Positions 1-48,219 of a stretch of DNA of 64,000 nucleotides are shown here, piece after piece. The stretch is from a virus: IMG/VR virus record IMGVR_UViG_3300042310_000427, positions 1 to 64,000 of that record. One strand, given 5' to 3'. Each line of letters starts with the position of its first letter. Position 1 is the first letter of the stretch. The position numbers were made by a program, and so were the translations under genes. The notes under the pieces are model-generated. The model did no database searches. It worked only from the letters and a program-made list of their open reading frames with translations, and was not told the origin of the DNA.

Positions 1-125
1 CACCGTGTATAAAAAATGGCGGTTTCTCGGTTAATTTAAAGTTTTGTAATTCTAATTAAGTTATTAGTTTGCTGAAAGTTTTGGAGTTCTAATCCACCAC
101 TTCTTATACACGCAAAACGTTATAT
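1..125. repeat. attC-like imperfect inverted repeat, site 1 (cut by window edge)
   Basis: The arm at 4-22 (CGTGTATAA then AAAATGGCGG) pairs with 94-112; 16 of 19 positions are Watson-Crick and the rest are G-U type. A CAAAA spacer and GTTATAT (119-125) follow. The site lies directly after the stop of the minus-strand methyltransferase gene at 198. Its outer left box would lie outside the window. The layout matches sites 2 and 3, which suggests a recombination site of integron-cassette type. No integrase is present, so function is inferred. Confidence 0.55.
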
Positions 126-185
126 GAAATGCCTTGATGACCGTTTCCAATTGAAGTTCCGTGAAGGAAAAACAAAAAGAAAAAA

Positions 186-195
186 GCCACCGCAC
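186..195. repeat. 10-bp direct repeat GCCACCGCAC, copy 1 (copy 2 at 989-998)
   Basis: GCCACCGCAC occurs just outside the stop of the first methyltransferase gene (186-195) and again just upstream of its start (989-998), in the same orientation. The pair brackets the gene inside the attC-like cassette. It could be a trace of an earlier insertion or a chance match. Confidence 0.35.
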
Positions 196-197
196 TT

Positions 198-959
198 TTA
201 ATTCGTGAATAATCTGTAAATATCATTTTTACTTAAACTTGGTGCTGATTGATGTTTTTTAAAACTACTCCAATCAAAATTTAGTATTTTATCTTTCACA
301 TATTCAACCTTGCTTTTATCATCTACTACTATTTTATAAGTTTGAGTATGTGTATCAGTAAATTTCTCTTTTCCTGCACTTACTCCTCGTCTAAAAATAC
401 ACAAATCAGCATTTATATTTTCATATCCATCTTGGTCATCCCTGTAAATTTTTATCCAATCAATCTTTAAATTTGGTTTTGTGTTCAATCCATTCTTTGG
501 TCGGGTGTAAATATTAAAACAACAATGTATTTTCATTCCACTGTATTCTAAAACTCCCAAATCAACGCTTTTAATCAAGTCAAACTCATAAAGACTATCA
601 GAATTATTTAATTGGCTTATTGGTAATATAAATGCTATTGCATCACCTAATTCAGTTGCCTTTTTATAAAAACTTCTTGCAAGGTTATTTCTATCTCCGA
701 AAGGTGGGTTTCCAATAATTAACCTACCGTATTTATAAGGCAAATCAAGTTTTAAAAAGTCCTGTTTTACAATGCTTTCGTGTTCGGGTTCTAAATCGTA
801 TGCAATACAATTTGGTATTTGTAAACTGAAATTACCGTTACCAGCACTTGGTTCAATAATTTCTGTTACATCAATGAACGTTTCAAAAAACAAATCAATA
901 CATTGTTTTGCCGTTTCTATTGGTGTGTAAAACTTGTCTAATTCTATATTCTTACTCAT
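198..959 (-). CDS. putative N6-adenine DNA methyltransferase (cassette gene A)
   Basis: A 253-aa class I SAM-dependent methyltransferase. EPSAGNGNF near residues 36-44 is the SAM-binding motif I (the F/GxG loop), and GNPPF near 82-86 is the catalytic NPPY/F motif IV of adenine-N6 methylases. No target-recognition domain or restriction partner is visible, so it is probably a solitary methylase of the kind phages use to shield DNA from host restriction. It is the only gene between attC-like sites 1 and 2 and points toward site 1, as a cassette gene does toward its attC. Family call is firm; the methylated sequence is unknown. Confidence 0.8.
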   Translation of the reverse strand: MSKNIELDKFYTPIETAKQCIDLFFETFIDVTEIIEPSAGNGNFSLQIPNCIAYDLEPEHESIVKQDFLKLDLPYKYGRLIIGNPPFGDRNNLARSFYKKATELGDAIAFILPISQLNNSDSLYEFDLIKSVDLGVLEYSGMKIHCCFNIYTRPKNGLNTKPNLKIDWIKIYRDDQDGYENINADLCIFRRGVSAGKEKFTDTHTQTYKIVVDDKSKVEYVKDKILNFDWSSFKKHQSAPSLSKNDIYRLFTN

Positions 960-1060
960 AATTATTTTAATTTTTCAAATTAATTTTTGCCACCGCACAA
1001 AAAAATAAATACTACTTCTGTGCTTCGATTTAAGTTTCTCGTTAATGAACCGCAACGAGA

Positions 1061-1154
1061 GCATAACAGCGTATATAAGAAATGGCACCATAAACATTCT
1101 GCTAAATTTCAACATTCTACAAGTGCCACTTCTCATATACGCAAACCGTTATGC
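1061..1154. repeat. attC-like imperfect inverted repeat, site 2
   Basis: The outer boxes GCATAAC (1061-1067) and GTTATGC (1148-1154) are perfectly complementary. The inner arms 1069-1088 and 1123-1142 pair at 18 of 20 positions, the other two being G-U pairs. The arms are separated from the outer boxes by 1 base on one side and 5 on the other. An outer AAC/GTT box, an unpaired spacer, an inner arm and a variable loop form the general plan of integron attC sites. The outer boxes do not fit the RYYYAAC/GTTRRRY consensus fully (A in position 3), so this is attC-like rather than proven. Confidence 0.6.
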
Positions 1155-1201
1155 GTAATGCCTTGCTGACGTGATTCGATTGACATTTTCGTTTGAAATT
1201 T

Positions 1202-1807
1202 TTAATTAAACCATTTGAGTTCTGTCGTTCCATTGAAGCCTTTTTGCCATACATACCAAGCATAAGCAACAGCACTTCCACCACCAGCAATCATTTTTTC
1301 AAATTCAGCGTTCTTTGCACAAAGCAGCCGAGAACTTGAAACATAAACGGTCTTTGGTGGTTGTGATAAGAATAGCTTTTTTCTCCCTTTGCCTTCCAAA
1401 AATTGTATCTTCAAAAACATTGCTACCTTGTTTCCTTCGGGGATAATCTGCAATGCTTTTTCAATAAATTCCTGTGCATACTTGTAAGGTGGGTTTGTAA
1501 TAATATCTCCGTTCCATTCCAAGTTGTCAATGCTCAAAAAATCTATTCCTGTTTCGCCAAATCCTCTATCCATTAAGTCTGTGCTTTTTACTGTGTGCCC
1601 AGCGTTTTCAAACACCTTACTCAAATGCCCCTCACCGCAAGCACACTCCCAAATGTTTGGCAAAAATTTTTCAAGTTCTAAAAGCAAATCGGCTGCTTTT
1701 GGGTCTGTTGCGTAATAATCCTCATTCTGCCTTTCTTTGTCAGTATGATTGCTTGCACCTAAAGTCTTATAGATGCTGTTGCTGTTTCCTGTCCAATCTT
1801 TTGTCAT
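1202..1807 (-). CDS. putative adenine-specific DNA methyltransferase (cassette gene B)
   Basis: 201 aa. WECACGEGHL near residues 53-62 is a SAM-binding motif I variant, STDLMDRGFG near 75-84 looks like the acidic strand-2 region, and TNPPYKYA near 104-111 is the catalytic NPPY motif IV. The family includes many small phage and prophage methylases without a restriction partner. It is the only gene between attC-like sites 2 and 3 and reads toward site 2. It shares only the general fold with gene A, so the two cassettes are not a recent duplication. The DNA target cannot be read from the sequence. Confidence 0.78.
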   Translation of the reverse strand: MTKDWTGNSNSIYKTLGASNHTDKERQNEDYYATDPKAADLLLELEKFLPNIWECACGEGHLSKVFENAGHTVKSTDLMDRGFGETGIDFLSIDNLEWNGDIITNPPYKYAQEFIEKALQIIPEGNKVAMFLKIQFLEGKGRKKLFLSQPPKTVYVSSSRLLCAKNAEFEKMIAGGGSAVAYAWYVWQKGFNGTTELKWFN

Positions 1808-1880
1808 TTCGTTTATGGTTTAATTAAAAATTTCTATTCGTGTTCCAAATGAAATTCCTGCTAAACAAGTCGGCACATAC

Positions 1881-1976
1881 GCATAACAGCGGTTTGCCAA
1901 AATGCCGCAAGAAAGTTCCTGCTCAAATCCGAAGTTTCTGCTATGCGGCACTTCGGCAAGCCGCAAAACGTTCAAC
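1881..1976. repeat. attC-like imperfect inverted repeat, site 3
   Basis: GCATAAC (1881-1887) is followed by GCGGTTTGCC (1889-1898), which pairs with GGCAAGCCGC (1955-1964), one pair being G-U. An inner stem TGCCGC (1903-1908) pairs perfectly with GCGGCA (1945-1950), leaving a symmetrical 4x4 internal loop. AAAAC and GTTCAAC (1970-1976) follow. The GTT box does not match the left box here. It marks the junction with the phage operon, whose last stop lies at 1993, as expected where a cassette abuts foreign sequence. Confidence 0.6.
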
Positions 1977-1992
1977 AAACATACGACCAAAA

Positions 1993-2283
1993 TTATTCTT
2001 CTCCAAATTTCTTATTTAAAAAATACATCACATCAACTGCTGATGCAGGGTAATTAAAAGAAACTGATTGCCCAAATTTAAGATCTTTATATTCTCTTAA
2101 CTGGATATTGCATGATTGTGATTTACTTTCAGGAATATCCTTTGTAGCTGCTTTTAATTCATTAAAGCAATTTCCAATAGATACATCTGTGAAGCAAATA
2201 TTGTGAACATGCTTAGTGTTCTTATCTTTAATGTAGCACTTTATAATAAGTGGTGGGGATGGCGGTGGATTATACAGTTTCAT
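1993..2283 (-). CDS. hypothetical protein, last gene of the left early operon
   Basis: 96 aa, not recognised. It begins with a proline-rich stretch (NPPPSPPLI) and has no membrane segment. Its start overlaps the end of the 49-aa gene upstream, so it belongs to the leftward phage operon. Its stop is 17 bases from attC-like site 3, so it is the last phage gene before the methyltransferase cassettes. Confidence 0.6.
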   Translation of the reverse strand: MKLYNPPPSPPLIIKCYIKDKNTKHVHNICFTDVSIGNCFNELKAATKDIPESKSQSCNIQLREYKDLKFGQSVSFNYPASAVDVMYFLNKKFGEE

Positions 2284-4669: not shown

Positions 4670-4948
4670 TTATCCTGCGTTAAATGATTTTAATATTATT
4701 CCCCTTTGTTGCCAATGGTGTGCAATCCCTATTGATGTTACTTTTACTTTGTCTATGTCTTTAAATTCAACCCAATCATTAAAATCGTGTTCATATTCCC
4801 CTGAATACCATTTCCCATCCTTATGGTGTGTAATATAGTCTGATGGGTGCATCTCTCGTGCCTCTTGTTCGCTTTCTGATACACAAACGAATGAATCATA
4901 GGTATCGTATCCTGTAACAATGTCTTGTTGTACTAAATAGATGTTCAT
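4670..4948 (-). CDS. conserved phage protein of unknown function
   Basis: 92 aa. The pattern MNIYLVQQD..TGYDTYDSFVCVSESEQEAREMHP resembles a small protein widely seen in phages and integrative elements, in which a Y-L-V strand is followed by GYDTYDS and an A-R-x-x-H-P helix. Function is unknown in that family. The call comes from memory of the pattern; no search was possible. Confidence 0.6.
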   Translation of the reverse strand: MNIYLVQQDIVTGYDTYDSFVCVSESEQEAREMHPSDYITHHKDGKWYSGEYEHDFNDWVEFKDIDKVKVTSIGIAHHWQQRGIILKSFNAG

Positions 4949-4959
4949 GTTATTGGTTG

Positions 4960-5136
4960 TTAATATTTTTCTAATTCTAATTTGTAATGATTAGCAATAT
5001 TAATAATTCTAATAATCAATTCCCTTTCGGTTTCTTTTGCTAATTCGATTAAGTCGCTTTTTGATTCAAATTCATCTCCAGATAATTCTAAAATTGAATT
5101 GATTAAAATTTCTCTTGTTGTTTGTCCTTCGTTCAT
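4960..5136 (-). CDS. small hypothetical protein (58 aa)
   Basis: Acidic, all-helical (TREILINSILELSGDEFESKSDLIEL). Not recognised. It ends 11 bases before the next gene and its ATG directly abuts the end of the gene upstream, which fits the leftward operon. Confidence 0.5.
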   Translation of the reverse strand: MNEGQTTREILINSILELSGDEFESKSDLIELAKETERELIIRIINIANHYKLELEKY

Positions 5137-5137
5137 A

Positions 5138-5425
5138 CTAATTAAATAAAGTTTGGTTTGTTGATTGTTTGGTTTGGTATCCTATTGTTTTAAAATCTCT
5201 TTTAAAAAGATTATATTTATAAAAAAACGCTTTTATGGGGTATGCTTCATTAAAATACTTTTGGTCCTCCATATCGTTGACTAACTTTTTAGCATAATTG
5301 ATAAAATCAATATCATCCATAAGTGCCAATTTGGTTAAAAAGCCTACTAATTGACTATGGTTATGCTTTTTTGAGCGAAAACATGCAATGACTATTTCTG
5401 TTAATTCTTTGCGGTTGTAGAACAT
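5138..5425 (-). CDS. hypothetical helical protein
   Basis: 95 aa, helical, with a basic C-terminal third (NLFKRDFKTIGYQTKQSTNQ). No motif or membrane segment recognised. It is 4 bases from the small membrane protein gene upstream. Confidence 0.55.
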   Translation of the reverse strand: MFYNRKELTEIVIACFRSKKHNHSQLVGFLTKLALMDDIDFINYAKKLVNDMEDQKYFNEAYPIKAFFYKYNLFKRDFKTIGYQTKQSTNQTLFN

Positions 5426-5429
5426 ATTT

Positions 5430-5597
5430 TTATTGATATAATAATTTTTTAATGAATGTATGGTTAATATGTATTGTTTTTCCTGCTTTTTCTGTCAATA
5501 CAGCCTCTATCTCCTTTTTTTGATACAATCTCCCTATAATGAATGAAAATATTGCTACAAACAAATAAAAGATATAATTTAATAATGCTTTTTTCAT
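5430..5597 (-). CDS. small single-span membrane protein (55 aa)
   Basis: MKKALLNYIFYLFVAIFSFI then IGRLYQKKEIEA: an N-terminal membrane helix or uncleaved signal followed by a short basic tail. The start overlaps the end of the 80-aa gene upstream by 4 bases. Function unknown. Confidence 0.5.
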   Translation of the reverse strand: MKKALLNYIFYLFVAIFSFIIGRLYQKKEIEAVLTEKAGKTIHINHTFIKKLLYQ

Positions 5598-46384: not shown

Positions 46385-47785
46385 ATGATAAGACTTAACA
46401 CCCCTATAGAATCTATTGTAATTAATCTCCAATCAGCAGGGGAAATTAACTATAACATACAATATGTATTTGTAAGGAATGGTGTTACATTAAATAAATC
46501 AGTTGAAGGAATACTTACCACAAGCGGACAACACCAAGTTTTAATCAATGATTACTCAAGTGGATATTTTGATATTACCTATCTGAATATTACTAACATT
46601 GACCCGGCACAGAATTACATAAGTGTCCTTAAAAAAACAAATGTCAATGAAACTAATCTTACCTCAGAGGCAATAGGACTTAAAAACAGAGAGTGTATTG
46701 AGTTTACCTCAGAAAGTGGATTTAAGACATTAGATCAAAACGGTAGTTTTAAAACAATTACTTCAAGTGTAGCAGCAGATGGTGATGTTCAAAATAGCGA
46801 TATGTCTTACATGGCAACCGTTCCAAGTGCTGGAAGCTTAACATTGCCAGATAGCCAAATAAATGTAAATGGTATTGATGAAGGAGATGTTGTAAGTGTT
46901 AAAACTATTGATGTCAATTTAACAGATGGTGTAAATCCGGTAGTTCCAAGTGCAATAAGCTTAGTGGGAAATACTCTTGAATTGACAGTATTATCATCAG
47001 GAGGGGGCGATGTTGATGTTGAAATAAATGGCGTTCCTTATGATACTATAACAGCCCCTGCAACAGTGGATGTTCCTGTAATAAATAGTGCATCAACACC
47101 TGTTGGTACAATTGTAGGAATAAATGTTGAAATAGGAAATAGTACAGCAGTAATTAAAAATAGCGCAGGAACAACAATTAAAACAGAGGCAATACCGGCA
47201 GCAACTTCCGAAAATATAACTATAATCAATAGTACAGTCAATGTTAGAAAAAGTGATGCTACATTGATAAGTGCAGTTACTGTACTTGCAGAAGGTTCAG
47301 CAAACTATAATGTTGCAGACAGTACCGCAGTTATTAAGAATAGCGCAGGAACGACTCTTAAATCTGAGGGAATACTTGCAGCTACATCAGAAAACATTAC
47401 TATTAATGATTCAACGGCAGTTATAAAAGACTCCGCAGGAACGACATTAAAATCCGAAAACATACTTGCAGAGGCATCGGAAAATATCACAATAAATGAT
47501 AGTGTAGCGGTATTAAAAGATACTGCAATGGTAACTCTTGATACAGTAAATATTTTAGCAGAAGATACTGAAAACATTGTATTAGATGATTTCAATGTGG
47601 AGGTAGAGGACCCTTTAGGGAGTGTTATTTTAACTGATAGTTATTTAGCATACTCTATGAATACTCTTAATTTAACTGCCCTTTCAAATGCCAATGTAGT
47701 AATTGGAAGTGCAACATCAATAACAATAAGCGCAACTGCACCATTAACACCTACACTAGGCGATATATGGTTTCAACCTAATTAA
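46385..47785 (+). CDS. repeat-rich tail fibre or adhesin protein
   Basis: 466 aa. N-terminal 120 residues beta-rich; about 155-215 a module (TLPDSQINVNGIDEGDVVSV, TIDVNLTDGVNPVVPSAISL) almost matching one in the gene at 50773; then from about 250 to 405 some five copies of a roughly 29-residue unit of the form D-S-T-A-V-I-K-N-S-A-G-T-T-L-K-S-E-x-I-L-A-x-x-S-E-N-I-T-I. Repeats of this type make long beta fibres. The nearest-neighbour copies differ by few residues, consistent with recent expansion. Confidence 0.6.
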   Translation: MIRLNTPIESIVINLQSAGEINYNIQYVFVRNGVTLNKSVEGILTTSGQHQVLINDYSSGYFDITYLNITNIDPAQNYISVLKKTNVNETNLTSEAIGLKNRECIEFTSESGFKTLDQNGSFKTITSSVAADGDVQNSDMSYMATVPSAGSLTLPDSQINVNGIDEGDVVSVKTIDVNLTDGVNPVVPSAISLVGNTLELTVLSSGGGDVDVEINGVPYDTITAPATVDVPVINSASTPVGTIVGINVEIGNSTAVIKNSAGTTIKTEAIPAATSENITIINSTVNVRKSDATLISAVTVLAEGSANYNVADSTAVIKNSAGTTLKSEGILAATSENITINDSTAVIKDSAGTTLKSENILAEASENITINDSVAVLKDTAMVTLDTVNILAEDTENIVLDDFNVEVEDPLGSVILTDSYLAYSMNTLNLTALSNANVVIGSATSITISATAPLTPTLGDIWFQPN

Positions 47786-47802
47786 AATAAATAAAATAAT
47801 AT

Positions 47803-48219
47803 ATGGCAACTTTCAACAAATTCAACGCCTTTGTGGCAGACTTAGCAAATGGGGTTCATAATCTCGGAACAAATCAATTAGTAGTAGCATTATCAAATAG
47901 CGCACCAAGCGCAACAGATGCAACACTAACTGCAATCACACAAATATCTTACACAGGTTTAAGTACAAGAAACATCACAACAACTTCAAGCACACAGACT
48001 TCGGGTTTGTATTCTTTGGTGTTAGTAGATTTAGTTCTTACTGCATCGGGTGCAATTCCTACTTTTAGATATGTGGTTATTTACAATGATACTCCAACAT
48101 CACCTGCCGACCCATTGATAGGATGGTATGACTATGGTGTAGGTGGTGTAACTATGGCTAATGGAGATACATTTACAATCGACTTTACAGACGCTCAAAA
48201 ATTAATAGAAATTTCTTAA
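47803..48219 (+). CDS. conserved phage structural protein (138 aa)
   Basis: MATFNKFNAFVADLANGVHN then LGTNQLVVALSNSAPSATDA; this opening (F-N-x-F-x-x-D-L-A-x-G-V-H-N-L) is frequent in phages with repeat-rich tails, whose function is not settled. Beta-rich, no signal. It may be a small fibre-associated or decoration protein. Confidence 0.6.
   Translation: MATFNKFNAFVADLANGVHNLGTNQLVVALSNSAPSATDATLTAITQISYTGLSTRNITTTSSTQTSGLYSLVLVDLVLTASGAIPTFRYVVIYNDTPTSPADPLIGWYDYGVGGVTMANGDTFTIDFTDAQKLIEIS

Follow-up and report, generated by a model that had tools for sequence, protein, structure and literature searches.

The locus that we consider here, at the start of a phage genome record, holds three imperfect inverted repeats and two DNA methyltransferase genes, and it raises the question of whether the repeats are integron attC sites and whether the cassettes that they delimit move among phages. 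The window (the whole stretch of DNA that was analysed, 64,000 nucleotides) covers positions 1-64000 of a virus record that is 66,370 bases long. The record encodes phage proteins of the head and of replication (terminase large subunit, portal, and DnaB helicase), and a tRNA scan found no tRNA genes. Because the relatives of its terminase belong to phages of Flavobacterium, Cellulophaga, Tenacibaculum, and Maribacter, this is probably a phage of Bacteroidota with a flavobacterium as its host, as judged solely from these terminase relatives.

A preliminary description, made from the sequence, had located the three repeats 15-75 bases past the stops of minus-strand genes and had read them as attC sites. 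We recovered the same positions (Table 1), and the distance from the upstream stop codon to the hairpin is 72, 47, and 16 bases for sites 1, 2, and 3. All three have the architecture of attC, with outer AAC...GTT boxes, an inner stem, and a loop in an imperfect inverted repeat, and when they are compared with the model of chromosomal attC sites, both the outer boxes and the asymmetry of the spacers (1 nt and 5 nt) are conserved. Sites 2 and 3 emerged as the strong sites in a hairpin scan of the 64 kb; simulated sequence with matched dinucleotide content gave 0-1 matches. To avoid circularity, we trained a covariance model (CM R1) on chromosomal Bacteroidota attC sites only (43 sites from chromosomal arrays, 26 pairs). 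In the 43-site alignment, 86% of the cells are paired, and the covariation is 0.60, versus 0.17 if shuffled and at most 0.11 if slid. A covariance search had been named in the preliminary description as a test that could refute it. With this model, the search gave three hits in the window and no more, each of them on the + strand, and the next best score was 13 bits. A scan of Rfam gave no family match, so no curated family in it covers these hairpins. Overall, the assignment of the hairpins as integron attC sites that delimit cassettes is well supported by the sequence comparisons.

Table 1. Features of the array and its surroundings (window coordinates unless stated otherwise)
Feature	Position	Strand	Details
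attC site 1	1..125	+	CM R1 75.5 bits, E 1.7e-15; crossover in R' box, between 119 (G) and 120 (TT); arms 4-25/91-112
attC site 2	1061..1154	+	CM R1 61.2 bits, E 3.7e-12; belongs to cassette A; crossover between 1148 and 1149; arms 1069-1088/1123-1142; single-strand DNA fold z -6.7 (bottom strand)
attC site 3	1881..1976	+	CM R1 50.7 bits, E 1.1e-9; belongs to cassette B; crossover between 1970 and 1971; arms 1889-1909/1944-1964; fold z -4.2
Cassette A	120..1148		1029 bp, from TTATATG to the G of the R' box of site 2; borders from G|TT positions
Gene A	198..959	-	253 aa, putative N6-adenine DNA methyltransferase, EPSAGNG ... NPPF
Cassette B	1149..1970		822 bp; borders from G|TT positions
Gene B	1202..1807	-	201 aa, putative DNA methyltransferase, ECACGEG / NPPY
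Two-cassette block	120..1970		1851 bp, absent from the second copy of the locus at the record end
Third probable cassette	record 65818-66252		435 bp; outside the window, left of site 1; ends with site 1
Phage DNA right of array, with gene C (1993-2283, 96 aa)	1971..2283	-	Right border of the insertion site

As had been described, each interval between the sites holds one ORF with NPPF or NPPY. Both products have the pair of motifs expected of a DNA adenine methyltransferase, namely a SAM motif and (D/N)PP(Y/F). Gene A matches phrog_5172 (E 1.9e-32), the DNA methyltransferase family phrog_799 (E 2.6e-14), and a type II methyltransferase in PADLOC (E 1e-19), and gene B also matches phrog_799 (E 6.8e-67); neither gene has a Pfam match or a solved relative. 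The methylases most likely shield the phage DNA from host restriction, and the array would let phages swap this protection.

The left R'' box of site 1 is missing since the record begins there, and an intact copy of the site is present near the other end of the record (66128-66258, which is L003 4129-4259; 75.3 bits). Thus, the placement of the cassettes at the edge of the phage genome, as first described, reflects an assembly breakpoint. To the left of the intact site lies a third probable cassette, with an ORF of 85 aa on the minus strand. Its initial bases are complementary to the R'' box of site 1 (CACTAAC), as a cassette's should be. No attC precedes its left border, AAATAAGTGAG|TTAGTGGC, which is similar to host attI cores such as ATATAAGTGAG|TTAGCGG. 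On the other side of the array, gene C has no close relatives among viral contigs and has a distant homologue (31%) in phage contig L209. Among relatives, this contig is the closest to carry a homologue of gene C. The corresponding spot (4890-5435) is occupied by another methylase and lacks attC sites, so that it marks a place for methylases but does not offer a clean empty attI.

The final 237 bases of the record repeat its start but without cassettes A and B: record positions 66134-66254 are identical (100%) to 1-121, and 66244-66370 are identical (100%) to 1962-2088. In this tail, site 1 runs straight into the right flank of site 3 (1972 onward), so that the phage DNA right of the array directly abuts site 1. 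The two sites have only 11 bases in common at the join (CGCAAAACGTT), and the join falls inside CGCAAAACG|TT, which by sequence is the crossover point of an integron, between the G and the TT of the R' box; the Polaribacter phage isolates discussed below agree with this crossover. It therefore appears, on the basis of one assembled record, that occupied and empty forms coexisted in the sequenced population. Furthermore, the tail is 100% identical over 121 + 127 bases, and therefore the two states should be close in time. The match of the tail to 1962-2088 is exactly 127 nt long, which is also the length of the terminal repeats in the related contigs G013 and G016, and the simplest reading is a branch in the assembly graph, with one path that includes cassettes A and B and one that does not. 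(At the start of the record, site 1 matches the tail over 121 bases, versus the 127 that a simple k-mer branch would give.) Integron recombination is expected to remove 120-1970 in just this way, precisely at G|TT, and two co-existing strains would give the same picture as active excision. An exact search of other viral contigs for the empty junction, ACACGCAAAACG|TTCAACAAAC, gave no match. When we checked other array-bearing contigs for overlapping ends, the end of G017 held a cassette that is found in its start array as well; we dropped this case because 12 additional bases lie at the join and the overlap reaches 98.9%, so that it may be chimeric.

The cassettes had been taken for classical units, with a gene and then its attC on the minus strand. 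We rejected this reading because of the crossover side, the strand found by the covariance model, and the asymmetry of folding. (We assigned the attC strand from the covariance model and the crossover side.) The attC sites are on the + strand, pointing right, with the crossover at their right ends, and genes A and B point left; therefore, each gene opposes its own attC (site 2 for gene A), and the classical order of an ORF followed by an attC in the same direction is absent from the window. The bottom strand folds better in sites 1 and 2; site 3 is the opposite, with the top strand 1.1 kcal/mol more stable. More broadly, the bottom strand is the more stable one in 33 of 43 chromosomal sites and 72 of 86 phage sites, and a conserved A.C mismatch on the top strand is a G.T pair on the bottom strand.

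This inversion is consistent across the phage arrays that were scored. In chromosomal arrays, the ORF runs with its own attC in 40 of 43 cassettes and against it in 3, whereas in phage arrays, none of the 57 scored ORFs runs with its attC and all 57 run against it. Twenty-five ORFs of the phage arrays begin inside the attC. In many phage cassette ORFs that start there (for example at L004 2875, L006 4661, L017 5929, L122 8663, and L244 5053), an arm of the attC encodes an N-terminal leader, such as ..TDVSGS.. or ..ANVLL... Fetching loci via methylase genes could have produced the pattern as an artefact. We rejected this explanation after drawing a second phage sample via an SSB-like core gene (L003:2631-3458; attC matches in 12 of 45 loci), in which 0 ORFs ran with the attC and 19 ran against it (3 of these units are from a contig that was already counted, leaving about 16 independent ones). 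We suggest that the cassette genes are antisense to their attC sites because phage operons read towards attI, rather than away from it as in classical integrons, so that cassettes in the sense of the operon would have to be inverted. The inversion would also make the bottom strand of attC, which is presumably the recombinogenic one, the coding strand; this would serve as the template of the lagging strand if replication proceeds in the direction of the genes. In E. coli, placement on the lagging-strand template increases excision (Loot et al., 2017, PMC5371416).

Close relatives of these cassettes occur in other phages. Phage contig L004 also carries cassette B, at 94% and bounded at the same points (window 1148-1972) but between unrelated flanks, and this finding, together with the precise absence of the block from the tail, bears out the proposal that methylase cassettes are mobile in phages. 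L004 and L025 are related phages with a 94% identical flank. Their common flank ends in ...CAAGTCGAGTAG|TT (bar a few upstream substitutions, both read ...GTACGCAAGTCGAGTAG|TT) and is followed by different cassettes: cassette B in L004 versus a cytosine-methylase cassette in L025. In L004, L007, and L026, the first cassette abuts phage DNA at G|TT without an attC. Across the phage cassettes, the cargo includes N6/N4, Dcm, Dam, MT-A70, and D12 methylases, a Mom protein, a TET-associated glycosyltransferase, and RNA ligases. Much of this cargo, by its predicted functions, is consistent with DNA modification against restriction.

The proposal had also been that the cassettes moved between phage and host. 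A genome scan with gene B gave mostly distant relatives of Firmicutes type, and the sole informative match (L112/L137) is in a Bacteroidota MAG. There (L137 1-1371), the relative of gene B is the attI-nearest cassette of a chromosomal integron and has the inverted orientation of the phage cassettes, possibly owing to a recent phage-to-host transfer. This one chromosomal integron aside, movement between phage and host does not explain the data best, as close relatives of the cassettes are found in other phages and complete phage integrons exist.

The relative of gene B in this MAG adjoins a gene for a 345-aa tyrosine recombinase, which has homologues in 120 of 396 Bacteroidota genomes (E 1e-40); many of the closest homologues have hairpins 3' of the recombinase gene, and the 43 sites of the covariance model were drawn from these. 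In phages, L257, L258, and L259 encode a 277-aa recombinase with 92-97% mutual identity and 40% identity to the chromosomal enzyme. Its 5' end faces a common sequence that ends in ...TTTACATATAATAG|TT; beyond this point, the first cassette differs from phage to phage. A search with the phage recombinase found 30 viral loci, and the 29 that were scanned contained 84 attC matches, all on one strand, opposite the genes. About 20 related phage contigs, some of them near-duplicates, have both a full-length XerA-like recombinase and attC sites. Truncated tyrosine recombinases lie beside the long arrays of two other phage contigs (L129 7826-8143 and L131 8664-8764), and in L129, the truncated gene is followed by an HNH endonuclease gene. 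The chromosomal and phage recombinases belong to the XerA-like group (NF040815). These relatives' enzymes score below the 265-bit cut-off of TIGR02249 (206 for the chromosomal enzyme, 164 for the phage enzyme, and 96 for that of the Freya phages), and the IntI-specific insert is absent from the chromosomal recombinase (residues 184-242 of IntI4 are unaligned). The window's record itself has no match to PF00589 across all of its 66,370 bases and thus encodes no recombinase. With three attC sites, it is a CALIN (at least two attC sites and no integrase gene) and not a complete integron with a recombinase and attI beside the array, as found in L257, L258, L259, and the Freya phages.

The Polaribacter phages Freya_1 to Freya_10 (L291-L298; MT732463-MT732472) were isolated on one host (PMC8776804), and they differ in just this way. 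Freya_1 and Freya_9 are identical over the 43,850 bp outside the array. In the seven isolates that we compared, the array is 0, 842, 1744, 2216, 4040, 4635, or 4942 bp long, and every array is inserted at a single AA|C (= G|TT) position, which lies on the 5' side of the integrase gene. The arrays of Freya_2, 5, and 9 are nested prefixes of that of Freya_10, the Freya_8 array is without an internal 902-bp segment, and the Freya_6 array has a different last segment (472 bp). The internal junctions carry attC-like hairpins, and the covariance model detects two sites (39.5 and 29.1 bits). The words "integron" and "insertion" are absent from the main text of the paper that describes these phages (PMC8776804). 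Another group of Polaribacter phages, Danklef_1 to Danklef_5 (MT732458-MT732462), has a related integrase, which seems to be split into two annotated genes, and record lengths that range from 47,186 to 48,177; this variation may be the same kind of array change.

To explain these observations, we propose, with high confidence, that bases 1-1976 of the window are part of a small CALIN in a Bacteroidota phage, which is mobilised at G|TT by a XerA-like recombinase acting in trans and whose methylases serve in counter-restriction. As the sequence shows, each cassette consists of a putative methylase gene and an attC, and recombination at the G|TT of two attC sites removes or adds cassettes A and B as one block. 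The XerA-like tyrosine recombinase would be supplied by the host or by a co-infecting phage. The host is a plausible source, given that chromosomal integrons there use attC sites of the same family, and a co-infecting phage could be one too, as complete integrons of this type occur in related phages.

A second possibility is that these are true attC cassettes but are old fossils of host integrons, immobile in phages now, and that the two states of the locus come from long-separated strains. The absence of a recombinase from the record would fit, as would the truncated recombinases beside the arrays of L129 and L131 and the attI-nearest position of a gene B relative in a chromosomal integron. 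Nevertheless, this seems unlikely because of the perfect identity of the tail copy, because other phages hold close relatives of cassette B, and because the uniform ORF orientation of the phage arrays is absent from chromosomal arrays. Also, the Freya isolates are identical over 43.8 kb and differ only in the array.

Third, the cassettes could be exchanged between phages by homologous or microhomology recombination, with no integron recombinase. Phage genomes are mosaic, the join in the tail has 11 bases of microhomology, and Qi et al. (PMC9892861) invoke off-target or illegitimate recombination as a possible explanation of some of their cases. But the breakpoints are at G|TT in the window's record, in L004/L025, in L257/L258/L259, and in the six Freya isolates that bear cassettes, and as homologous recombination would not choose the same base every time, we consider this explanation very improbable. 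Finally, the hairpins lie just 3' of gene stops, where terminators are located, and assemblers can misjoin repeats, but we give almost no weight to the idea that terminators or operon hairpins merely resemble attC and that the length difference at the record end is an assembly artefact, since the hairpins fit a model built from integrase-linked chromosomal attC sites (boxes and 1-nt/5-nt spacers included), the 11 shared bases at the join are far fewer than the 127-nt word size suggested by related contigs, and cassette B has the same end points in another phage.

Mobilisation of the window's CALIN by a recombinase acting in trans also fits a broader proposal, which we consider likely: that Bacteroidota phages own active integrons, with a phage-specific XerA-like recombinase, an attI, and arrays of inverted cassettes that are rich in DNA-modification genes, and that these make up a pool of counter-defence genes that is dedicated to phages and shared among them. 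As a client of this pool, the window's phage would borrow the recombinase. The phage integrons appear to be active now because the arrays are all that distinguishes isolates of one phage, and the relatives' integrons probably swap methylase-type genes to escape bacterial restriction enzymes. If so, then phages run their own integrons to exchange protection genes singly, beyond picking up fragments of bacterial integrons, and there is a concrete mechanism for the rapid turnover of anti-restriction genes in phages. As the Freya phages are cultured with their host, the proposal is directly testable. The strict inversion of the ORFs and the non-canonical recombinase also bear on the definition of an integron.

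How does this compare to known systems? Phage CALINs with methylases were already known, including two methylase cassettes in Polaribacter phage P12002L (Qi et al., 2023, PMC9892861), so the methylase cassettes of the window are less unusual than was first supposed. The same study found three complete integrons and one In0, each of them carried by a temperate phage (Vibrio, P1, Shewanella); showed that a class 1 integrase recombined 5 of 6 tested phage attC sites; interpreted divergent attC directions as mosaicism; and did not report phage-specific integrons, consistently inverted cassettes, or in/out polymorphism. The window alone adds to these CALINs; what is new is phage-owned and apparently active integrons with inverted cassettes. 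In the open-access literature, we found no earlier report of the ORF inversion, of a phage-specific recombinase and attI, or of array polymorphism.

P12002L (L139) resembles the window in having attC-flanked cassettes in a phage of Bacteroidota, two DNA methylase cassettes, and an array without a recombinase, but its sites are undetected by our covariance model at E 0.1. Short hairpins that resemble attC, likewise undetected by the model, also adjoin other genes of this phage (29.9-31.3 kb and 38.0-39.2 kb), among them a Mom-like gene and an additional methylase (37.3-38.8 kb); as judged by eye, the ORFs there are against the sites as well. The chromosomal integrons of Bacteroidota (XerA-like, NF040815) share with the phage integrons the attC family, a similar attI core, and the recombinase family. 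In the chromosomal integrons, however, the recombinase points towards the array and most ORFs run with their attC, while in the phage integrons, all scored ORFs are against attC and, in three phages, the 5' end of the recombinase gene faces attI. Class 1 and Vibrio integrons, with canonical IntI, have the same attC folding, G|TT crossover, attI beside an array, and single-gene cassettes; they differ in that the recombinases described here fall below the IntI cut-off and that the chromosomal one is without the IntI-specific insert. Last, secondary sites of attC recombination have been termed attG (PMC12901181). The places in L004, L007, and L026 where the first cassette meets phage DNA are attG-like, but in L257-L259 and the Freya phages, the site is better called attI because it lies just 5' of the phage recombinase gene.
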